Assembly: GCF_003991135.1 (NCBI RefSeq)
Contig: NZ_CP016379.1
Coordinates: 2,914,001 to 2,978,000, forward strand
From: Anoxybacter fermentans
Lineage (GTDB): Bacteria; Bacillota; Halanaerobiia; DY22613
DNA length: 64,000 nucleotides
Reading direction: 5' to 3'
The translations under genes and the position numbers were made by a program. Shown here one piece after another: positions 10,773 through 23,406 of the stretch (position 1 is the first letter of the stretch; the number at the start of each line of letters is the position of its first letter). The notes below the pieces were generated by a model that ran no database searches, was not told the DNA's origin, and worked only from the letters and a program-made list of their open reading frames with translations.

Positions 10773-11855
10773 TCAACAGCCTGATTTATTCTTTTTTATT
10801 AATCCCAATCCCTCCATAAGGGATGCAAACTCCTCCAAATTCAATTGCTGATGTGCATCTGAACGGGCAATGGCCGGATTGTTATGTACCTCTACCATAA
10901 GACCATCTGCACCTGCTGCTAACGCTGCTTTAGAAATAGGCAGAATTATATCTTTTCGTCCAGTAGAGTGACTCACATCCACAATCACCGGCAAATGGGT
11001 CTTTAACTTTAAAATAGGGACTGCCGATAAATCAAGGGTATTACGGGTCCAATGTTCAAAGGTTCTAATCCCCCGTTCACAGAGGATAATTTGAGTATTT
11101 CCCCTGGCATAAATGTATTCAGCAGCCAGCATCAGCTCTTCTAAAGTGGCCATAAAACCCCGTTTTAAAAGAACCGGTTTTTTTGCATTTCCCACTTCTT
11201 TTAATAACTCAAAATTTTGCATATTCCGCGCACCGATCTGGAATATATCTACATATTCTTCTGCTAACTCCAACTGTTCAGCACTCATCACCTCAGAAAC
11301 TACTTTCATTCCATATTCATCTGCCACTTCCCGCATAAGTCGCAAACCTTCCCGGCCCAGGCCCTGGAAACTGTAGGGTGATGTCCGGGGTTTAAAGGCA
11401 CCGCCGCGTAAAAAAGAAACTCCCAAACGATTCAATTCTGAAGCCACTGCTTTCATTTGTTCCCTGCTTTCTACAGCACACGGGCCAGCAATCATGACAG
11501 GTATTTTTCCACCGATTACTAAATCCCCAACTACAATTTTTGTATCCTCTTTTTTCATCTCTCTACTTACTAAAAGCTGCTCTTCTGTCTCTTTTTCCTG
11601 GAGTTTTAGAGATGCTTTGGCAATCTCTTTAAATAGGTGCACAATAGTCTCATCGGAAAATGGCCCGGAATTTTTTTCTGTCAATTTTTCAAACATCTCC
11701 TGCTCCCGTTCTGGATCATAAAAAGGCAAATTATTCTCTTTTTTAATCCGTCCAATTTGCTGTACGATCTCTGCCCTTCGATTCAATAACTCTAATAATT
11801 GATCATTAATTAAATCCAACTCTTTTCGTAATTTTTCAATTTGTTGAAGTGTCAT
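10773..11855 (-). CDS. aroF: Bifunctional chorismate mutase / DAHP synthase
   Basis: A 360-residue fusion at the entry of aromatic amino acid synthesis. Residues 1-85 are an AroQ-type chorismate mutase helix bundle (LRKELDLINDQLLELLNRRAEIVQQIGRIK split over about 30 residues). Residues 105-350 are a class I-beta (KDO8P-synthase-like) DAHP synthase with GPCAVESREQ, LRGGAFKPRTSPYSFQG, EVMSAEQ and IVDVSHSTG. In Bacillus-type enzymes the mutase domain mediates feedback by chorismate or prephenate; that is family knowledge. It stands alone. GGAGGTGAAACTCC before the ATG is a ribosome site inside a small inverted repeat. Confidence 0.95.
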   Translation of the reverse strand: MTLQQIEKLRKELDLINDQLLELLNRRAEIVQQIGRIKKENNLPFYDPEREQEMFEKLTEKNSGPFSDETIVHLFKEIAKASLKLQEKETEEQLLVSREMKKEDTKIVVGDLVIGGKIPVMIAGPCAVESREQMKAVASELNRLGVSFLRGGAFKPRTSPYSFQGLGREGLRLMREVADEYGMKVVSEVMSAEQLELAEEYVDIFQIGARNMQNFELLKEVGNAKKPVLLKRGFMATLEELMLAAEYIYARGNTQIILCERGIRTFEHWTRNTLDLSAVPILKLKTHLPVIVDVSHSTGRKDIILPISKAALAAGADGLMVEVHNNPAIARSDAHQQLNLEEFASLMEGLGLIKKNKSGC

Positions 11856-11904: not shown

Positions 11905-12376
11905 CGAATTTCATAAAAATAAAGCTTGATATATCAACGTTTTTCAGAAATAAAAGAAAGACTTCACCCCTATTATGTCGAATATATTGGTAACCAAACC
12001 CAAAAAACAACAAGGGGTGAAGTCACTATTGAAATATATTCGACAAGAACTTTTATTATCCTTTGAAGATTTAATGGAATTACAGCCAGAAACAAAGCTT
12101 GAGTTGATCTTTAAAAATATCAATTTTTCTGAACTAGCAAAAAATATAGCACCAAAATCTAATAGAGATCCAAATGGCTATAATCCTATTCCAATCATTA
12201 GAGTTTTACTGGCTCAACAAATCAAAAAGATTCCTACAAAAGTTAATCTTGTAAGAAACTGAAGAAAGATCTAGTTTTTTTGATACATTTACAGCTTTAA
12301 TGTTTTTGGCAATAACTAGTAAAGCTACATTTAGTAGGTATTATAAGAAACTTAATAAAAATAAGACTCTTTCATA
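11905..12376 (+). pseudogene. 5' remnant of a DDE transposase (plus-strand copy)
   Basis: The frame opening at ATG 11975 gives an intact N-terminal 95 residues (LSFEDLMELQPETKLELIF ... GYNPIPIIRVLLAQQ). After a frameshift it continues to about 12376 as TSKATFSRYYKKLNKNK, then is lost. The 70 bases upstream match, in inverted orientation, the bases upstream of the minus-strand copy near 14045-14125, so both belong to the same insertion-sequence type. An IS4/IS5/IS1182-like DDE family is likely; the exact family was not identified. Confidence 0.7.
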
Positions 12377-12539
12377 ATTCACTTTTTATCAAAAAAAGCG
12401 AAAAGCACTATAGTAAAAATATAGAGATATCTTATCTATAATCAAGCACAACCAACCAATTACCAATAATTATTATCTGGTTTTAGATAAACTACCCCTT
12501 TGGTCTTATAGTTATATTTTTAAATGGATTTATTCATCT

Positions 12540-14125
12540 TTAAACTGATTTATCTAATACCAAATCACTTTTACAAGTGATAAGAATTAGCCATTATTAA
12601 AGCTATGCAACTTAACAGTATATGGACTCTAACTTTTTTTAAACTCATTACCATTATATTTTCTAGGTTAAGATGTTTCTTTAATCTTAAAAAACACCGT
12701 TCTACACTGGTCCGCTTGTTGTAAATCTCTTTTCACTTTTTTGACCAGCGGTATGGAGTGGGAACATACCTGGGATCATCTTTAACTTTTAGCTTTACTA
12801 AAACTCCATAGTTTAATTTTGAACACCAAGTAGTTCCATGTATGCAATCAACTTTACCCAAAACATACGGACATCCGAACCTATTACAACTTTTTTCATG
12901 ACCCTAGTAAACCATTTTATAACCACCACTTCATACAGGAATTCTGTCAAAATCATAGTATCCTTCCGGTAGTTGACTGGCATTTCTTTTATTAATGAGA
13001 ATGAAAACCTGGCCTTTATAAATCTGGTAAATTTCTTGATAAATGTTTAGCCAATCGTATCCGGAGTCCACTACCCAATTCTTAGGGACTTTGTAACCCT
13101 TTTCTTTACACCTTCGATAAATTTCGTATACTAAAGGTATTGTAAATTCACCATCTACTTTACTCGCCTGTGAAAGAATTAAAACAATTGGAAACTCACT
13201 TACGTAATCTACAGCTACATACAATTTCCAACCAAGCTTTTTTGATTGCCATGTGAGTCATTTTTTGAATTCCAATTAGGGGTATTCTGATTACTTTCAT
13301 CGATCTACTGTATCTGGCAAAGTAAAAATGGAGCATTTGGTCAAGTAGTTATACAAAAAATATTCAAATTACAGCTTTACATGGAGAAAAGGGTATGATA
13401 AGCTAATAGCCTGGCAAATTAACTTCTGCCCGCATTTGTCTTAAATCATAACCTTAGAGGCTCTATGTCAAGCTGTAATTTGAATTACATTTGATGAATA
13501 AAAATACGGCCAAATGCGGGATTTTTATATAGCCAAAAACATCTCCTTTTTTGGTTTTGCTTTCTCATAAGAGGTTAAGTCTATTACATTTATAGCGATT
13601 GTTTCTGTATTCATTATGCCTAGTTGAATGGCGTTATTAACTAAATTTAAGTAAAGCTCTTCTAAACATTTATTTTGCTAATTTTACTGTAAATATTTAC
13701 TAAAAGACGCTTCACTCGGTACTCTTCCAATAACACTGAATCTATAAACATATCGAAAAACAGGGTTAGTTCTCAAACGTCTTACTAACGCTGATCGTGT
13801 CAGAATATTTTCAATCTATTGAGCAAATAGTACACGAACAATTGGTGCCAGATCATAACCAGTCAGGCCTCTTGTTATATTTGATTCAATAGTTTTTTCT
13901 ACCAATGAAAGAGCACCATTTCAAAAAATTAGTTCTAACTTTGTTTCAGATTGTAACTTCATTAAGTCATCAAATGAATATTAAAGATTGTTTTCATGTA
14001 ACTTAGCCCCCTTATTGAAATTGATTTGGGTTACCAAATATATTCGACAAAATAAGGATGAGGTCTTTTTTCCTAAAAAACCTTGATATTTCAAGTTTCA
14101 TTTTTATGATATTTACTTAATCATT
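12540..14125 (-). pseudogene. Degenerate DDE transposase, nearly full length
   Basis: A decayed second copy of the same transposase, running leftward from about 14045. In order it shows GYDLAPIVRVLFAQ, VFRYVYRFSVIGRVPSEASF, an intact 97-residue block at 12931-13224 (KLYVAVDYVSEFPIVLIL with SGYDWLNIYQEIY), and a C-terminal TSVERCFLRLKKHLNLENI near 12690. Many stops and frameshifts separate the blocks, so it is inactive. No other gene is visible here. Confidence 0.7.
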
Positions 14126-14385: not shown

Positions 14386-15453
14386 TTATCCATGATTGCC
14401 CTTTAAGATTTCACGAATAATGAGACGGGTAAAATTTAAACTATAAATTATAAAAAACCCTTTAATCAGAAAATTTTGATAACCTTTCACATGGAAACTG
14501 AAAATCTTTATGTAAAATTTACCGAAAACTAATATTCCATATATTATAAAAAATTTATGTAATATAAATGTTAAAAATTTATAAATAGTAATCCATTTAG
14601 GCTTTTTAAATTCTGTTTTTTCTCTTAAAAATCTATATCCATCACCTCTAGCAGCAGGAATTAACATAATTGAAATTACATAAAAAGAATAGTATATATT
14701 TAAAAGTATTACATCAGTATTTAACAGAAAATTAATCCATATTAATATCGATAAATAAATTGATTGAAAATAAAGACCTCCAATTATAATTCGAGATCGT
14801 ATATGATTAGTGTAATTTTCAGTTTTCGGAATTTCAGTAAAAATAAATGGCATATTTTTTTTTATACCCAACTTAATACCATTAGGTTTAATTCCATAAT
14901 ATATAGCTATGGTTACATGTCCTAACTCATGAAATATTATACCTAATAAATATAATATAAGGAAATATCCAAACTGAGTTAAGCTTATATTAAAAATATC
15001 AAGAAATTTAAATTCAAAAAAAGCAAAATATAAAAATGAATTTATTACAATCAATAACATGTAAGTTTGCACCTTAGGATTACCTAACCAAATTAATTTT
15101 TGACATATAAATATAGTAAGTTGTTTTGATAAAATGTTTTTTGTTTTTGTATAATTTTTCTTTCCTACTGTCAAAAGACCATTTTTATAAAACATTTGAA
15201 ATATATAATTACCTACTTCCTCTACTGATAAGTCATAATTAATAATATTATTAAATTTTTGAGTAATCTCTTCAATTGTACTATTCCCATCAATTAAATT
15301 TAATAAAATCATTCCTTCTTCTGATAAACGAAATATAAATTTTTTATTATCTATTATAACTTTAATCGTATATGGTAATTTGTTTTTTTTGGTATTTTTA
15401 TAAATCTCAATATTTTTAACTAATTTAGGAACAAAATCCTTTGTTATCTTCAT
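14386..15453 (-). CDS. M50-family membrane metalloprotease with RRE-like N-terminus
   Basis: A 355-residue membrane protein. Residues 1-95 look like a PqqD-type RiPP recognition element (FIFRLSEEGMILLNLIDG, SVEEVGNYIF). About six membrane segments follow, and the zinc motif FHELGHVTIAIYYG (HExxH) sits near residue 180 in a hydrophobic helix, as in site-2 proteases. It is the last gene of the RiPP operon, 5 bases after the B12 radical SAM gene. It probably processes or helps export the matured peptide, but it lacks the peptidase-ABC architecture usual for leader removal. It may instead act in immunity or on another substrate. Confidence 0.75.
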   Translation of the reverse strand: MKITKDFVPKLVKNIEIYKNTKKNKLPYTIKVIIDNKKFIFRLSEEGMILLNLIDGNSTIEEITQKFNNIINYDLSVEEVGNYIFQMFYKNGLLTVGKKNYTKTKNILSKQLTIFICQKLIWLGNPKVQTYMLLIVINSFLYFAFFEFKFLDIFNISLTQFGYFLILYLLGIIFHELGHVTIAIYYGIKPNGIKLGIKKNMPFIFTEIPKTENYTNHIRSRIIIGGLYFQSIYLSILIWINFLLNTDVILLNIYYSFYVISIMLIPAARGDGYRFLREKTEFKKPKWITIYKFLTFILHKFFIIYGILVFGKFYIKIFSFHVKGYQNFLIKGFFIIYSLNFTRLIIREILKGNHG

Positions 15454-15458
15454 TTATA

Positions 15459-17786
15459 TCACTCCAACACTTTTTCATATTGCTCTATAATATATTTAAT
15501 CACTTTTGAATCATCAATATGAAATTCCTTCTTAATATTTTCTTTTAAAGACATATCATTTTTTTGATCCAAAAGAAAAATTTTAAATAAATCTTTACCG
15601 ATTTTTTTTAATTTTCTATTGTTATATATATAGTAATTATATTCTTTGTTTTTTACTATAAAAGGAAAATAACTATTTTGTAAATTAAATTTTAAGGGAA
15701 AATATACTTGATTATTGGGTTCCTTTTTAATAAATTCAGTAAATATAGGTTTACAGACTTCATAAAAAGTAACTATATTGATATAATCACGTTTATTTTT
15801 TTGCCATTCACAATAACGCTTAAGATCACTAATGTTAAGACATTTTGGGCATTTATTACTTACATAACAATTTTTACAATCTCTATCTAGATACACCTTT
15901 TTTTTAACTTCCTCAATTTCTCGCAGAAGAATTTGTCTATTCCAACCACTCAATACAGGTCCTGAACAATCACAAAAATGTAATTCACCCGATGAATCAA
16001 TCCCAAAAGAATTTAAAGTACTGGCAACACAGTTCCTCTTTATCCACTTACATATATCTGTTACAACCAAATTTTTTTCAAATAACTCTCTATTTATACT
16101 TACAAAAAATTGATTTTCTATTTCAATAATCCTCACATAAGAACAAAAATCTTCAAAAGATATTGCCTCCACATTATTCATTGTTTTTAAGCTTTTGATA
16201 GCATAAATTTCTGGAAACTTTTTAATAACACTTACAACCAAATCTTTAAGAGAAAGAGGCAAATTTAATTTTTTAAATGCAATAATGAAATTTTTTCCGG
16301 GAAAAATCGAACTAAGTTTTTTCTTTAAATAAAGATTTTCCCAATTATCATCGAGCCACACTACAACTATTTTCTCAGTCAGATTTCGCTGTAAAAAATC
16401 CACATTACTAATTAATAATTCACTTTCAGAATTAAAATATACAGACTTTTCCTTAACACCTTCAAATCTGTAACCTAAATGGTTAGCTTTTCGTTTTTTT
16501 CCATGATGATTGTAAAAATCATTAAACGTATTTAGCTCTAATTTTAAATTATAGTTATTTGGATTTATAAACCAAGGTGCTCCAGGTTCTAAATGAATGG
16601 GCATAATATTGCAATGTACATTTTTAGAAGTAATCCTTTTCATCCATTCTATTTTTTCAATATATTTTTCCCATATCATGTCTTCATCACAGGGAAGCAT
16701 CGCAAAATATACATTCACATTAATCCCTAAACGTGTACAAGTCAAAATTTTCTTTTCTAACTCTTCTAAATCATAATTTTGTTCTGTATATTTTTTTCTA
16801 AGTTGGTCTGAATAACATCCAGGAGAAAAAATGATTTCAGATTTTTTTAAATCAAATGTTTGAGAAAAATGAGTTAAAAATTGATTAGAAGGTAAATCAT
16901 AACATTCAAAAGAAAACCCAATATTTAAATTATTCTCTCTGATTAATTTAAAGAGATTTAAATACCACTCATCTGTTAACTCCGGAGGATCAAAACAAAC
17001 ATAGAAACATTGAATATTATATTTTAAAACATTCTTAATAATAGTTAAAACTTGCTCTGGACTACGAAAAACAGGCTTCTTTCGACCAAAAGATTTAATT
17101 TGATTTTCTTTCGAACCAGCACAATAACTACAACTTAAAGAACATCCTCGCCCTATTGGCAAGAAAAATCTTGGCTCACCTTCCTGATTAGCATAAATAT
17201 AACCCTGATAGCTACTATCATTTTCATATAATGACAAATCCCAATCTTCTAATGCATCAAGAAATTCAGAAGAAGCAATAAAAGTTATCATATTTGTTCT
17301 AATCTTTTCCTGATCTCTCCAGACTAAATTAGGAACTGATGATAAATTACCTTTTTTTTGATTTAAGATAGATATTAAACGCGTTAAAGGTTCCTCTCCA
17401 TCACCTCTAATAATAAAATCAACTTCAGGAAATTGGGTAAGAATCTCCTCAGCAAACCAACTGGCAGTATAACCTCCTAGCACAATAACAGGAGGATCGG
17501 GCAATTTTTTTAATGCTTTACAAACCTGCAAAACACTATAAGACTGAAAATGCCAATGAAGATTTAAACCAACTAAATCAAATTTCTTCTCTAGAATAAA
17601 ATCTTCAACTTTTTTGTATTTTCCTCTTGATAAAAGATCACCTAAATGGCATATTTGCAAATAAACTCCTGTATGCTTCTTTACATAGTTTCCTAAACCA
17701 ATCAAACCTAATGGCGCAGCGTAAATAAAAGAATCTTTTTTATTAAGAGTTTGCGGTACATGCATAAGTAATACATTTTTAATCAT
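15459..17786 (-). CDS. B12-binding radical SAM enzyme with C-terminal Cys cluster
   Basis: A 775-residue protein. The N-terminal third looks like a cobalamin-binding Rossmann domain (FDLVGLNLHWHF, VIVLGGYTASW, VDFIIRGDGEEPLTRLI). The radical SAM cluster motif GCSLSCSYCAG (CX3CX2C) is near residue 215. The C-terminal region adds a SPASM-like cysteine set (FCDCSG, CKNCYVSNKCPKCL) around 610-660 and ends with a PqqD-like stretch (SLKENIKKEFHIDDSKVI). Such enzymes often methylate or crosslink unreactive carbons of peptides; the reaction here is inferred only. It follows the U32 gene by 15 bases. Base composition is very AT-rich. Confidence 0.8.
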   Translation of the reverse strand: MIKNVLLMHVPQTLNKKDSFIYAAPLGLIGLGNYVKKHTGVYLQICHLGDLLSRGKYKKVEDFILEKKFDLVGLNLHWHFQSYSVLQVCKALKKLPDPPVIVLGGYTASWFAEEILTQFPEVDFIIRGDGEEPLTRLISILNQKKGNLSSVPNLVWRDQEKIRTNMITFIASSEFLDALEDWDLSLYENDSSYQGYIYANQEGEPRFFLPIGRGCSLSCSYCAGSKENQIKSFGRKKPVFRSPEQVLTIIKNVLKYNIQCFYVCFDPPELTDEWYLNLFKLIRENNLNIGFSFECYDLPSNQFLTHFSQTFDLKKSEIIFSPGCYSDQLRKKYTEQNYDLEELEKKILTCTRLGINVNVYFAMLPCDEDMIWEKYIEKIEWMKRITSKNVHCNIMPIHLEPGAPWFINPNNYNLKLELNTFNDFYNHHGKKRKANHLGYRFEGVKEKSVYFNSESELLISNVDFLQRNLTEKIVVVWLDDNWENLYLKKKLSSIFPGKNFIIAFKKLNLPLSLKDLVVSVIKKFPEIYAIKSLKTMNNVEAISFEDFCSYVRIIEIENQFFVSINRELFEKNLVVTDICKWIKRNCVASTLNSFGIDSSGELHFCDCSGPVLSGWNRQILLREIEEVKKKVYLDRDCKNCYVSNKCPKCLNISDLKRYCEWQKNKRDYINIVTFYEVCKPIFTEFIKKEPNNQVYFPLKFNLQNSYFPFIVKNKEYNYYIYNNRKLKKIGKDLFKIFLLDQKNDMSLKENIKKEFHIDDSKVIKYIIEQYEKVLE

Positions 17787-17801
17787 AAAAAAACCTCACT
17801 T

Positions 17802-18809
17802 TTATAAATGTTCTAATGAATACTGATCAGGATAATAACATAAAAATTTTTGATCACAGATTTCTGCACTTGATTCACCAAAAAACTCTTCTATACAAGC
17901 ATCTCTATATTCATCAAAATCATTAATTTGTTCTGCCATTTGGATTGCTTTTCTAATAATTTGTACCCATTTAATACGATCCTCTAAAAACGCTGTTCTA
18001 CCCACCAATTTTAAGTATTTTACTGAAATATATTTTAATAATTTTATAGAACACAAACCACATTTTGTAATTTTAACATTATTATATTTGATAATAGCAT
18101 CAGCATTATACTTAATAACACCTTCAATTTTTGTTTTTTCAAATAAATAAGGATCTACTTTATTAACATTTTTCTTTAACTTAAATATGCAAGTACGGCA
18201 GAGTGGTGAATAACATACATGATGAATTGAATAACAATACCCCCCATTAAAAAAACAACCTTCATTTAATAAAAATGCTTCATACTCCAAATTTTTATTT
18301 GCAAGTATAATTTGATTCATCTCTTTAATTAACACATGCCGAGGAAAGACTATTCTTTCAACATTTAAATCTTTGTAAAAATGAGTTGCAGCAATACTTG
18401 TACAATTTGCTTCTCCACTTAAAACTATTTTTATTGGATATTTTTTTTCATTTATAGCTAATAAAAGAGGTAAATTTGATACAATTACACCATCGACAGA
18501 TAAATCAACTAATTTTTCTATTAAATTTAAAATATAAGTAACCTGAGATTGAGTATAACTATTCTCATTAAAGGTAACTAAAATTTTTTTTCCAAAATAG
18601 TGCGATCTTTTTACTGCTTCTGCCAATTCTTCTATCGATGCAAAATTTGCCCAAGGGTACATACTACGACAATTAAGTGGAATTTCGAAACCATATTTTT
18701 CTTTCCAATCTATTGGTACAACACCACAGTAAAATTCATTTGCCCCAGCTCGAACTAAAGCTTCTACATCTTCTGCTGAATTTAATGGAGTCTGTATATA
18801 CATAGGCAA
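17802..18809 (-). CDS. U32-family protein in RiPP cluster
   Basis: A 335-residue protein of the peptidase U32 superfamily. The N-terminus VEALVRAGANEFYCGVVPI and VDGVIVSNLPLLL fit the TIM barrel that opens U32 proteins. A cysteine-rich stretch (NEGCFFNGGYCYS, CYSPLCRTC) at about 190-218 and KCGLC near 255 fit the iron-sulfur cysteines of UbiU/TrhP/RlhA-type members. Known U32 proteins act in hydroxylation of RNA or quinones; a peptide substrate would be new as far as I know. The gene lies between an IS110 relic and the B12 radical SAM gene. Confidence 0.7.
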   Translation of the reverse strand: MPMYIQTPLNSAEDVEALVRAGANEFYCGVVPIDWKEKYGFEIPLNCRSMYPWANFASIEELAEAVKRSHYFGKKILVTFNENSYTQSQVTYILNLIEKLVDLSVDGVIVSNLPLLLAINEKKYPIKIVLSGEANCTSIAATHFYKDLNVERIVFPRHVLIKEMNQIILANKNLEYEAFLLNEGCFFNGGYCYSIHHVCYSPLCRTCIFKLKKNVNKVDPYLFEKTKIEGVIKYNADAIIKYNNVKITKCGLCSIKLLKYISVKYLKLVGRTAFLEDRIKWVQIIRKAIQMAEQINDFDEYRDACIEEFFGESSAEICDQKFLCYYPDQYSLEHL

Positions 18810-18829
18810 CTTTCTCCTCCTTCTTTAAA

Positions 18830-19060
18830 ATAATATCAAAAATTACTTTTTCTTCAAAAATTTATTTCGATGGATTGTGTAATATTTATTGTTTTATTTT
18901 AGATTTCCATCTGAGTACTATCAATACTCAAATCCTTATCATACTCAATTCCATGATAATCCTAGACTCTTATAACATATTTTTTCCTTGAAATATCAAT
19001 TCCAACTACTAAAGTTGTTTTTTTACTTACATAATTTTTCTTTTTTTATATAATTTACTT
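18830..19060 (-). pseudogene. IS110-type transposase N-terminal relic
   Basis: The minus-strand translation near 18990-19050 reads LVVGIDISRKKYVIRV, then a stop, then DYHGIEYDKDLSIDSTQ. This is the RuvC-like N-terminus typical of IS110 transposases (VGIDISK...). The rest is missing. It occupies the 372-base gap between the two U32-like genes; nothing else is seen in the gap. Confidence 0.65.
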
Positions 19061-19181
19061 TGAAGTATCTTCTTAGTTTTTAATTTAGAGGTCAATGCTT
19101 CGCCAATACCCTGTATTATATACCTAAGGAAACTTTTTTATGTCTATTTCAATTATTTTTTATTACAGAAATGTTCTTTCT

Positions 19182-20489
19182 TTAATATGGCATTTCATGA
19201 TAAAATATCAACCGGTTAATATTTTTATTATGTGCCAAAGCAAAATCAAAATTACTCTTCCAATTATGAAATTGACTAAAAAAACCTCTACCTTTAATCA
19301 AACTTTTACTACGCACAGCACCCAAATCTTCTTTAACTCTAACCTTATCCAAAAAATCAACCTCATAACTATAATCACGGCAATTATAATTACAAGGTTG
19401 TTGAAATGAGTGTAATGTTTTAAAATCTCTATCTAATACCCCAAGCAAACACATTCTAGAGAAAGCTATAGTATAAAAGGGAAAATGAAGATGCAGTTTT
19501 ATTGAGTTTCCTTTTGATAAATCTAAAGGAAAACCTTGGGGTAAACAATCTATTTCAACTTGTTCAATCCCTTGCGTATATAAAAATTTTTGGTAAACAT
19601 GTACACTTAAATCTCCATATCGAAAATTATCCTTACACCTTTTAAATATTTCATTTTTTTCATATGAGTATCTTGGATCTCTCTTCATTTTGACTAATAA
19701 TCTACCTAAAACAGGTTTAATAAACTTTTTTCCTTTCAATAATTGAAAAGTTCCCCAATTATTGAAAACAACTTCGATTACCTTTCCATGTCTTTGGCCC
19801 CAATGATCTATAAAGTCAAATAATATTTCAAATTGTCTTTCATATTTTTGATATAAGGTAGGTGTAACAAATGTCAACTCCAGTTTTTCATCCTTAACTT
19901 TTCTCAAAATATACTCTAATTTTTCAGTCGAAGGTAACAATCTAGGGCAAAACTCATGACCATAATAAACTCTATTTAATTTCAATTTTCCAATTAACGT
20001 ATTTTCTAAGGCCATTTTTTCCTTTATGAATTCAAAAATATCTCTCACAGCATAAATATTAAGTAAATCCTCAAGTTTTGGGTTTACTAAATTAAAAGCT
20101 AGCTCAAAAGATAAATCTAATTGATTAGAAATATGTATTTTTTTTATAGAATCTTTTGTATAAAAAGTAAAATTATTTAGAAAATTTCTTTGTTCTTCTG
20201 TTAGTTGTTTTATTTTCAATTTATATATTTCTGGCCCAATTAATTCAGGAGAATCAAGTATTAAGTTCTTGAAACATTGAGTAACAATCTCATTGGAATA
20301 ATTAAAATAATATAAAATAAAGGATGTGTATAAGGGAGTATATTTAACTCTTGAAATCCCCCTAATGATTAGATAATCCGGAGATACTCCCTCAAGATAC
20401 CCAAAAAATTCTTTTCCCTTGTTATCCTTGATAGTAATTGATAATCTATGAAAATATGCTAATTTATTTATATCGTTCACTAATTTCAC
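19182..20489 (-). CDS. Second U32-like protein in RiPP cluster
   Basis: A 435-residue protein without an obvious membrane segment. The centre (LTFVTPTLYQKYERQFEILF, VIEVVFNNWGTFQLL, KPVLGRLLVKMKRDPR) resembles U32-superfamily proteins in which 'NxWG...GRLL...KRDPR' follows the barrel start. Cysteines appear late (GHEFCPR, DCLPQGF, QQPCNYNC), compatible with an iron-sulfur site. The first 170 residues are not recognised. It starts 5 bases after the SPASM radical SAM gene, so the two are co-translated neighbours and likely work on the same peptide. The function is inferred from context. Confidence 0.6.
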   Translation of the reverse strand: MKLVNDINKLAYFHRLSITIKDNKGKEFFGYLEGVSPDYLIIRGISRVKYTPLYTSFILYYFNYSNEIVTQCFKNLILDSPELIGPEIYKLKIKQLTEEQRNFLNNFTFYTKDSIKKIHISNQLDLSFELAFNLVNPKLEDLLNIYAVRDIFEFIKEKMALENTLIGKLKLNRVYYGHEFCPRLLPSTEKLEYILRKVKDEKLELTFVTPTLYQKYERQFEILFDFIDHWGQRHGKVIEVVFNNWGTFQLLKGKKFIKPVLGRLLVKMKRDPRYSYEKNEIFKRCKDNFRYGDLSVHVYQKFLYTQGIEQVEIDCLPQGFPLDLSKGNSIKLHLHFPFYTIAFSRMCLLGVLDRDFKTLHSFQQPCNYNCRDYSYEVDFLDKVRVKEDLGAVRSKSLIKGRGFFSQFHNWKSNFDFALAHNKNINRLIFYHEMPY

Positions 20490-20494
20490 ACTCC

Positions 20495-21892
20495 TTAAAA
20501 TAAACTTTTTATTTTAGCAAGCCCCTCTCGCGCAAATTCAATAGACTGATTTAATGGTATTTTAAATTTTTTATTTAAAAAAGCAATAGCATATTCAATG
20601 CCATTATTTCCACCTATTTCAAGTAAAGATGCAAGCTTTTCATCTATTTTGTACAATTTGTTCCGACCATATATATATAAAGTATAATAACCAGGTCGAA
20701 TTAAATAAATATTAAAACTATCTCTCGAAGGTAAATTTGACTTCAATTCCTTTTGTAATTCATTGCTTAATTTTATATCTTTTAAGTCCAGATCCCCAAG
20801 ATTATCAAAATATCTTTTATAATATCCTCTCCATAGTCGCCTGGACTTTAAAAAGTTTAAATTATTTTTTGATCCTCTTTTCACTACGTTTAAATATATT
20901 TGTTTCCCAATATCGAAATAACTTTTCCTAGAATGACAAGTATTTAAACCATTTGTATGAAAATTTCCGGTTTCTAAATAATGACTATATCCACATCCTC
21001 CGCGACACACCTGGAAATAATCACACTTTAAGCAACTGCTATATCTTTGTTTTTTTAGTAAAAACCATTCCCTTCTTTTTTGATAATCAATTCCCGAATC
21101 AATATGCCCGATTATAAATTTCCTTAATTTATAAAATTGATAACATGCATAAAGAGAACCATCTGGAGCAATAGTTATTTCCTTTGTACAACTTCTACAA
21201 TAGAAACATCCACCAATTTTCTCTGCATCTTCATAATTTATTCTTATATATCCATCTATTCCACAATAAGGAGGACGATACCCTTTTAAAAGCCAATCTT
21301 CAATTTCTTTGCATAATTCTGGCCAAACCTTTAAGCCCTGTGGCTCTTTTTTCTTGCCATAAAAACAACTATTTACTAAATCAAATTCTAAATCATAAAG
21401 TAAATAATCATAAAACTTTTCTTTATATAAATCAAAATAATCATATTTTATCACAGAATTTACTTCTACAACCCCACCTTGTGCATGTATTTTCCGAATA
21501 AACTTTCTAGTATTTTCTATAATAATATCACTATATTGCTTTGTTCTAGCACTCATGTCCGGGTCAAGACTTATCTGAACCTTTACCTCAGGATTTTTTG
21601 CCAAGAACTCAGCTATTTCTCCTTTCAAAGCTATAGCGTTAGTTGTAAATCCTAAAGCAACATTAGGACATAATTGTTCAACAAAATATTTGAGCACTGG
21701 AAAATTTAATAATGGTTCTCCTCCAAAAAATATTATTTCTTTAATATTATTTTTATTGATTTTCTTAATAATTTTTTTTGCTATTTCTAGAGTCATATGA
21801 TCATTATCTTTTTTATGATTACAATATTCACAAGATAGTTGACACTTGTTTGTCAAATAAATTTTTAAACTATCTAAACCTACAAGAGGCAT
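20495..21892 (-). CDS. SPASM radical SAM peptide maturase
   Basis: A 465-residue radical SAM enzyme. The cluster motif CQLSCEYC is at residues 17-24 and the SAM-binding FFGGEPLLNFPVL near 55-67. A SPASM domain with CFYCRSC, ACYQF and CLKCDYFQVCRGGCGYS spans about 230-305. The last 80 residues look like a PqqD-type recognition domain (LYKIDEKLASLLEIGGNNG). This is the usual layout for enzymes that form thioether, carbon-carbon or other crosslinks on a ribosomal peptide. It lies directly downstream of the precursor peptide gene, its presumed substrate. Confidence 0.85.
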   Translation of the reverse strand: MPLVGLDSLKIYLTNKCQLSCEYCNHKKDNDHMTLEIAKKIIKKINKNNIKEIIFFGGEPLLNFPVLKYFVEQLCPNVALGFTTNAIALKGEIAEFLAKNPEVKVQISLDPDMSARTKQYSDIIIENTRKFIRKIHAQGGVVEVNSVIKYDYFDLYKEKFYDYLLYDLEFDLVNSCFYGKKKEPQGLKVWPELCKEIEDWLLKGYRPPYCGIDGYIRINYEDAEKIGGCFYCRSCTKEITIAPDGSLYACYQFYKLRKFIIGHIDSGIDYQKRREWFLLKKQRYSSCLKCDYFQVCRGGCGYSHYLETGNFHTNGLNTCHSRKSYFDIGKQIYLNVVKRGSKNNLNFLKSRRLWRGYYKRYFDNLGDLDLKDIKLSNELQKELKSNLPSRDSFNIYLIRPGYYTLYIYGRNKLYKIDEKLASLLEIGGNNGIEYAIAFLNKKFKIPLNQSIEFAREGLAKIKSLF

Positions 21893-21964
21893 AAATTCCT
21901 CTCTCCTTTCTTTGTTTTTTATTGTTAAGTTTTATTGTTAAGTAGTCTTAAACAGTAAGAAAAT

Positions 21965-22087
21965 TTATTCAGGTTCAGTCCATGCCCAATAATGTTGAGC
22001 AGTTACACCACCAGAACCACCATAAAGAGCAAAGTTTTCTTCAACTTCTTCAATCACTAAATCCAATTTCAACTTCTTTTTGGACAT
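21965..22087 (-). CDS. RiPP precursor peptide (40 aa)
   Basis: A short gene with a strong ribosome site (AGGGGGTGAAATA then ATG). The first half is a charged, probably helical leader (KKKLKLDLVIEEVEENFALY). The second half is a Gly/Trp-rich core, GGSGGVTAQHYWAWTEPE. There is no cysteine, so sactipeptide or lanthipeptide rings are ruled out; Trp, Tyr and His are the likely modification sites. A Gly-Gly lies at the leader-core junction (residues 23-24), a possible cleavage site. It sits between exporter and radical SAM maturase in the same operon, which is the main reason to call it the substrate. Confidence 0.8.
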   Translation of the reverse strand: MSKKKLKLDLVIEEVEENFALYGGSGGVTAQHYWAWTEPE

Positions 22088-22152
22088 TATTTCACCCCCT
22101 ACTCTAATAATTTTATCTTGAAAGGAATTTAGCCTCTTGCAGATTAACTAAA

Positions 22153-23406
22153 TTAACTATTTATTGATTCAAGAGTATTAAGCCGTTCTTTTGACAATTG
22201 AAATATTTCTCTAAATTCAGTATGAAAAATACATAAATAAAGTATAATTGCAATATTAATAAGACCTGCAACTATGTAAATATAAGGAACATTAACATAC
22301 TGACCAATTACTCCCATTACAAACATGGATAAAGGAGAAAAAGCCAGTGCCATTGTACCAAACAATCCAAAAAATCTTCCCCGTTCTTCCCTTGAAACAT
22401 ATAACTGCAAATTTGTGTTTAATGTCATGTGAGAAAAAACATTCAATACACCCATTAAAATATAGGCAATAATTACAAAATATCCATTAATAATAACACC
22501 ACATAAAGCTGTTAAAATCCATACACCTAAAGATGAATATAAAAATAAATTCCACTGGCTCTTACGATCAGGAGCTACCAGTGAAGTAAAGAATAATGCA
22601 AGAAAAGACCCTAGAGGTTTTGCCGAAAAAATAAAAGCAGCCAATATTGGTGTAGCTTTCAAATTATACTGCAAGTATTTAGGCAAAACAACCAACAATG
22701 GAGCACCAAATATATTCAACATGGCTGTATAAACGATAACAGCCAGCAAACTTTTGTTTTTTAAAATTAAATTAATTCCATTTTCGAAGTCTATAATAAA
22801 AGAATTTTTTTTTCTTTCAACTTTTCTGGAGGCAGGAATATCTATAAATATTTCTAAAAATCCGGAAATTAAAAAAGTCAAACTATCAATTAAAAACAAA
22901 AACCCAATAGAAAATAACTGATATATTACACCGGCAATCCCCGGACCAATTATTTGAAAAATTCTACTGGAAATGCTATTTATCGAATTGGCTCTTAGCA
23001 AATCCTTCTCATTGACAATATCAGGATACACTGATTGAATTGCCGGAAGCAAGAAAGCTGAGCAAGAGGCTAAAAAAGGCGCAAAAAAAATCAAATGCCA
23101 TCCTCTCAACTGATCAAAAAAAGCTAGAATAGCAATAATGAACACAAGAAAACCACTCAATAAATCTGATATAATAATAATCCATTTTCGTGAATACCGA
23201 TCAACTATAACCCCCGCTAAAGAACTAACTAAGGCCATTGTTAAAGTAGTTATGCTCATTACAGTCCCCAGCAAAAATGTTGAATTATATTTAAATTGTA
23301 ACCAGAAAATTACAGCCATATGATGAATTCGATTTCCTAAAATTGAAGTGCTTTGTCCAATCCATAATAGTAAAAAATTTTTATTAAAAAGTTTTCTTTC
23401 TTCCAT
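22153..23406 (-). CDS. MFS exporter of RiPP cluster
   Basis: A 417-residue, twelve-helix transporter of the MFS_3 / enterobactin-exporter-like type (LLWIGQSTSILGNRIHHMAV at the N-terminus; VDRYSRKWIIIISD near 68; YVSREERGRFFGLFG near 330). It is the first gene of the presumed RiPP operon, 65 bases before the precursor, and is the best candidate for secretion of the mature product. TATAAT lies about 45 bases upstream, without a convincing -35. Confidence 0.8.
   Translation of the reverse strand: MEERKLFNKNFLLLWIGQSTSILGNRIHHMAVIFWLQFKYNSTFLLGTVMSITTLTMALVSSLAGVIVDRYSRKWIIIISDLLSGFLVFIIAILAFFDQLRGWHLIFFAPFLASCSAFLLPAIQSVYPDIVNEKDLLRANSINSISSRIFQIIGPGIAGVIYQLFSIGFLFLIDSLTFLISGFLEIFIDIPASRKVERKKNSFIIDFENGINLILKNKSLLAVIVYTAMLNIFGAPLLVVLPKYLQYNLKATPILAAFIFSAKPLGSFLALFFTSLVAPDRKSQWNLFLYSSLGVWILTALCGVIINGYFVIIAYILMGVLNVFSHMTLNTNLQLYVSREERGRFFGLFGTMALAFSPLSMFVMGVIGQYVNVPYIYIVAGLINIAIILYLCIFHTEFREIFQLSKERLNTLESINS

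Follow-up and report, generated by a model that had tools for sequence, protein, structure and literature searches.

A low-GC operon, very probably for the synthesis of a small modified peptide, with a UbiU/UbiV-like U32 pair predicted to hydroxylate it without O2

What is made by an operon in which two radical SAM enzymes, a protease and an exporter accompany a 40-aa open reading frame, and what could two U32-type proteins be doing among them? The window, i.e., the whole stretch of 64,000 nucleotides that was analysed, covers positions 2914001-2978000 of a single-contig genome of 3.56 Mb. This genome belongs to the Halanaerobiia, a class of known anaerobes. All seven genes were located where the earlier note had placed them and in the order that it gave; their ORFs are intact and follow one another on the minus strand, from 23406 down to 14386:

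22153..23406, minus strand: MFS exporter, 417 aa (PF07690, E 1e-36; TIGR00900, E 4e-61)
22085..22096, minus strand: ribosome-binding site and start codon of the precursor, GGTGAAATAATG with GGG before it (read from the sequence)
21965..22087, minus strand: precursor peptide, 40 aa, MSKKKLKLDLVIEEVEENFALYGGSGGVTAQHYWAWTEPE (ORF list and shuffle test)
20495..21892, minus strand: radical SAM/SPASM maturase, 465 aa (PF04055 and TIGR04085 above cut-off)
19182..20489, minus strand: UbiV-like U32 protein (protein 4), 435 aa (hhalign to UbiV, E 3.5e-6; AF2 model compared with 5d88)
18810..19181, minus strand: gap that includes a decayed IS110-like stretch of 40 aa, which may be an insertion scar (weak resemblance)
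17802..18809, minus strand: UbiU-like U32 protein (protein 3), 335 aa (PF01136, E 9e-26; hhalign to UbiU, E 5e-31)
15459..17786, minus strand: B12-binding radical SAM enzyme, 775 aa, with a probable RRE (PF02310, PF04055; TIGR04190, E 2e-54, below cut-off)
14386..15453, minus strand: M50-like membrane protease, 355 aa, with an N-terminal PqqD-like RRE (PF02163, E 0.0026; daptide protease NF041824, E 0.0013)

Family models identify every protein of the operon except the UbiV-like protein and the precursor peptide, and no Rfam or tRNA feature was found. The GC content of the block is 27.2% against 35% in the remainder of the window, so the operon was probably acquired. Decayed transposase fragments at window positions 11975-14006 flank the operon and are consistent with such a low-GC acquired block. 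Beyond them, 2.5 kb from the operon, lies a fused chorismate mutase/DAHP synthase gene (window 10773-11855); such genes are common, and the product of chorismate mutase is prephenate. The same genome carries other PqqD-domain genes (G000:C1:2302196-2303759, 3199877, 3306438 and 913746), which are further RiPP loci; one of these genes is a frame of 610 aa in which the PqqD domain occurs twice.

The operon very probably makes a small modified peptide (RiPP): a short precursor gene lies beside modifying enzymes, a protease and an exporter, and a PqqD-like RRE is present at the N-terminus of the protease. The precursor ORF is preceded by a GGGGTG ribosome-binding site, and its core carries H, Y, W and W but no Cys. 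When the 260-bp gap that holds it was shuffled, an ORF of at least 40 aa with a Shine-Dalgarno signal and an ATG arose in 27 of 3000 shuffles, and one that also had two Trp in its last 15 residues arose once in 3000. A search for relatives of the precursor in 199 and 398 genomes of the phylum and in plasmids returned no convincing homolog; one match stood at E 0.036. The identity of the precursor therefore rests on place, signal and composition. The earlier note had described a cysteine-free core in a RiPP cluster outside the characterised classes, and both statements hold: the precursor is devoid of Cys, which supports the absence of Cys-based chemistry, and no known RiPP class fits. Sactipeptides and ranthipeptides are ruled out since the precursor offers no Cys for thioether bonds.

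The SPASM maturase has a CX3CX2C motif at residue 17 and SPASM cysteines at 229-319. Its best full models are PapB, then QhpD, both far below cut-off, as is the cyclophane-family AmcB model (E 5e-11). Maturases of the PapB/QhpD type make Cys thioethers, whereas the precursor of the window has no Cys. No convincing homolog of this maturase was found in the 199 and 398 phylum genomes, the plasmids and the viral contigs. The B12 enzyme has generic relatives alone in the phylum; three better ones occur in a Margulisbacterial group, all without a U32 pair. Near one B12-enzyme relative lacking U32, a Margulisbacterial 45-aa ORF ending in KVGGSW (L162:6255-6392) could belong to a simpler relative pathway. 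The extra Cys cluster noticed before in the B12 enzyme is indeed present as a C-terminal SPASM-type motif (C586-x13-G-x4-C605; C637-x2-C-x5-C-x2-C649; C659). As for the protease, its M50 assignment is weak (E 0.0026) and a HELGH motif is present at residue 175.

A PqqD-like region had been attributed to these three enzymes. Compared with a PqqD profile of 18 sequences from related genomes and loci, the protease N-terminus carries it clearly (none of 962 shuffles scored as high; hhalign E 2e-6), and the B12 enzyme C-terminus does so marginally, tying with the best of 991 shuffles (1/991, E 0.005). By sequence, the SPASM maturase C-terminus does not exceed its shuffles; its AF2 model, of very low confidence, has the order beta-beta-beta-helix-helix-helix, which is that of PqqD-like elements.

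UbiU and UbiV, each of which binds a 4Fe-4S cluster, assemble into a heterodimer that carries out O2-independent hydroxylation of ubiquinone (PMC6747719), and the oxygen source of this reaction is prephenate (PMC11574389). From their sequences, the two U32 proteins of the window are a UbiV-like/UbiU-like pair. The UbiU-like protein, which has a TTG start with an ATG two codons downstream, aligns to UbiU over its length. Its E177-C185-C192 corresponds to E161-C169-C176 of UbiU and to E162-C170-C177 of TrhP, which is essential in the latter (PMC6599085). It thus keeps the E-x7-C-x6-C motif, as do 75 of the 80 scored U32 partners (see below), and C199, C250 and C253 are candidates for the third and fourth ligands.

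The UbiV-like protein bears an N-terminal extension of about 125-160 aa with a beta-rich domain and has no match in the family-model libraries. Comparison with a single UbiV sequence is too weak and the match needed six UbiV sequences and a 68-row alignment, whose profile reaches E 3.5e-6 against UbiV and 0.0023 against UbiU in hhalign. Its C181, C347, C366 and C370 align with the four cluster ligands of UbiV; like the CXnCX12CX3C motif of the latter, the arrangement C181-Xn-C347-X18-C366-X3-C370 has its first Cys far upstream, and its middle spacing is longer. In the AF2 model, the core folds as a barrel, for which the U32 protein MK0906 is the closest structure in the PDB (5d88; Z 11.6, the next being 10.9). 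Among solved structures, 5d88 alone is also found by sequence, weakly, and Foldseek alone returned generic barrels, none with E < 0.001.

The pair of the window thus shares with UbiU-UbiV (PMC6747719) the adjacency of a UbiU-type and a UbiV-type gene, the cluster cysteines and the E/C/C motif. It differs by its N-terminal extension, by its place in a RiPP operon of a Halanaerobiia-type genome and by its distance from the NCBIfam equivalog models: UbiU scores 57.5 bits against a cut-off of 440 and the UbiV model gives no match. The two genes are separated by 372 bp, in which an IS110 relic had been reported; the 40-aa IS110-like stretch makes such a relic possible, but it has no Pfam match and no second copy in the genome. 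The earlier note had correctly assigned both proteins to the U32 type but missed that they form a UbiU/UbiV-like hydroxylase pair. Because of this identity, hydroxylation of the aromatic core is the most likely signature step, a step absent from the earlier picture, of which crosslinks or methylation at Trp/Tyr/His remain a part.

When 85,000 species were scanned with the profile of the UbiV-like protein, 125 loci came up, of which 80 were kept. The relative of the UbiV-like protein (U32v) and its U32 partner are neighbours in 74 of the 80 (automatic call), and gene calls, contig ends or intervening genes account for most of the others. In many loci, the pair has no recognisable peptide context, and in 23 of the 80 it lies within a quinohemoprotein amine dehydrogenase (QHNDH) operon. 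In the biogenesis of cysteine tryptophylquinone (CTQ), the flavoprotein QhpG dihydroxylates Trp43 of QhpC with O2 (PMC7876137). QhpG is absent within ~10 kb in 11 QHNDH loci that show all six other qhp-type genes, ten being from Bacillota or unassigned and one from Desulforhabdus; four proteobacterial operons have both:

L058, L067, L071, L072, L086, L093, L104, L121, L123, L128, L129: QHNDH operons with the U32 pair and no QhpG in view
L091, L098, L107, L126: proteobacterial QHNDH operons with both QhpG and the U32 pair

The residues of QhpC that form CTQ are invariant in all, QhpG-less operons included (precursor Cys65/Trp71, i.e., Cys37/Trp43), so that hydroxylation of this Trp must still take place by some means where QhpG is lacking. 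The U32 pair of these operons is a candidate O2-independent Trp dihydroxylase for CTQ. No U32v relative occurs in 26 QHNDH plasmid records, and QhpG was found in both of the two proteobacterial QHNDH plasmid operons inspected. The distribution of QhpG and U32 repeats the known pattern of TrhO and TrhP, in which an O2-dependent and an O2-independent hydroxylase are paired. In a Nitrospinota genome, a 511-aa protein with a QHNDH gamma-like stretch (L103:4731-6263; E 3e-7) lies near a QhpD-like enzyme and a U32 pair and could be a new quinoprotein. The operon of the window itself was rejected as a QHNDH operon, the gamma subunit model PF08992 having no match in its genome.

Other U32 pairs are found in RiPP and natural-product loci. 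For example, a locus of Candidatus Saganbacteria (L109) encodes a 62-aa aromatic-tailed precursor (ASWGYGYHSSSGG), U32, U32v, SPASM and two B12 radical SAM enzymes, one of which matches that of the window at E 6e-57. The two loci have in common U32, U32v, a B12 radical SAM enzyme, a SPASM enzyme and an aromatic precursor; the Saganbacteria locus, also uncharacterised, differs by its second B12 enzyme and by showing no MFS or M50 protein on its contig. Three loci of Omnitrophota (L081, L089 and L099) are RiPP-like clusters with several radical SAM enzymes and up to two U32 pairs. L081, which also carries PqqD, and L099 have precursor-like genes of the form KF.P.ITRIKLN.EQAVL.C.C, a family without a name. 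In Cellulosilyticum ruminicola, an N-extended U32 pair lies amid NRPS/PKS genes (L116:370-16313) and may also tailor nonribosomal products. In a tree of 83 rows, the window clusters with L109 and one Margulisbacterial row (95/92). This group belongs to a clade of 37 rows to which all the RiPP rows and all those with an N-terminal extension are confined, whereas the QHNDH-linked pairs are without exception on other branches. The window row has a branch length of 2.19, and because of this long branch its placement is not firm.

The best reading of the operon, which we hold to be probable but with reserve, is that of a RiPP whose aromatic core would be hydroxylated anaerobically by the U32 pair, after which the radical SAM enzymes would introduce crosslinks or methyl groups and the peptide would be cleaved and exported. 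Hydroxylation of the peptide by the pair, predicted from its homology and because such pairs are repeatedly located together with peptide substrates, appears rather probable; that Trp is the target is a more tentative suggestion, falling somewhat short of even chances. The RRE of the protease, and probably also that of the B12 enzyme, would bind the leader. The UbiV-like/UbiU-like heterodimer, whose two subunits would each have a single 4Fe-4S cluster, would then hydroxylate an aromatic residue of the core without O2, with prephenate as the putative oxygen donor; the two Trp of HYWAW, or one of them, are the most likely site. The SPASM enzyme may subsequently crosslink this Cys-free aromatic core and the B12 enzyme may methylate it or make another crosslink of the C-C type. 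The M50-like protease would cut off the leader, with GG(SGG) as a possible site, and export of the product would fall to the MFS protein.

Three other explanations can be weighed against this reading. The U32 pair could be a bystander, co-located with the RiPP genes, e.g., by insertion, whose substrate is RNA or a small molecule such as a quinone. The characterised U32 hydroxylases are indeed known to act on ubiquinone and RNA alone (PMC11574389, PMC6599085, PMC6747719), a possible IS scar separates the two U32 genes and many relatives have no clear peptide context. However, the pair sits within the operon, flanked by two maturases, and its nearest relative in the tree belongs to another RiPP cluster with the same B12 enzyme, and we regard a bystander as unlikely. 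Alternatively, the pathway could yield a redox cofactor derived from the peptide, similar to PQQ or a tryptophylquinone, and not an antibiotic or signal for export. The combination of a SPASM enzyme with an RRE and with a hydroxylase of an aromatic pair does recall the logic of PQQ and CTQ, and QhpD ranks second among the matches of the SPASM enzyme. Such a cofactor is nevertheless improbable: an MFS exporter heads the operon, no dehydrogenase adjoins it, the SPASM enzyme scores far below the cut-off for QhpD and a QHNDH gamma subunit is missing from the genome. Finally, it is quite improbable that the two radical SAM enzymes do all the core chemistry while the U32 proteins are leader-removing peptidases, as the annotation of U32 as a peptidase family and the fold match of the UbiV-like protein to MK0906 could suggest, since both proteins carry the Fe-S cysteines and the catalytic motif of hydroxylases, the operon already has a protease and the pair also occurs in QHNDH operons that have their own subtilisin-like protease.

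Peptide hydroxylation by the U32 pair, the preferred reading, can be compared with known systems. The QhpG step of CTQ biogenesis (PMC7876137) is also a peptidyl Trp hydroxylation alongside a SPASM radical SAM enzyme, and U32 pairs related to that of the window replace or accompany QhpG in qhp operons. However, QhpG is an O2-dependent flavoprotein, and the window has no dehydrogenase, its Cys-free peptide of 40 aa being a free one. Of the pathways already worked out, that of biphenomycin-like RiPPs is the closest in logic. There, the aromatic core is hydroxylated first and then crosslinked: an O2-dependent MNIO hydroxylates Phe and a B12 radical SAM enzyme makes the crosslink (PMC12257519). 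The window has a U32 pair instead of the MNIO, plus a SPASM radical SAM enzyme, and none of its seven operon proteins matches the MNIO/DUF692 model in a Pfam scan.

In the open-licence literature, subscription journals being outside this scope, no report was found that links U32 proteins to a RiPP, QHNDH, a tryptophylquinone or a peptide substrate. A role of U32 pairs on peptides, if shown, would thus constitute a new enzyme class for peptides. As a broader and still tentative proposal, less likely than the reading of the operon itself, UbiU/UbiV-like pairs could be general O2-independent peptide hydroxylases, serving as an anaerobic counterpart of QhpG and in the tailoring of RiPPs and nonribosomal products, and the operon of the window could use one of them in an anaerobe to produce a peptide that derives from Trp and possibly bears a quinone. 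A qhpG-less strain of Paracoccus denitrificans has already been made (PMC7876137), and the question of which substrates other U32 subfamilies hydroxylate becomes directly testable in an existing system. If the substrate is a peptide, these pairs would add an O2-free route for bringing oxygen onto Trp, provide peptide chemists with an anaerobic hydroxylase and explain the maturation of QHNDH in Bacillota operons that lack QhpG.
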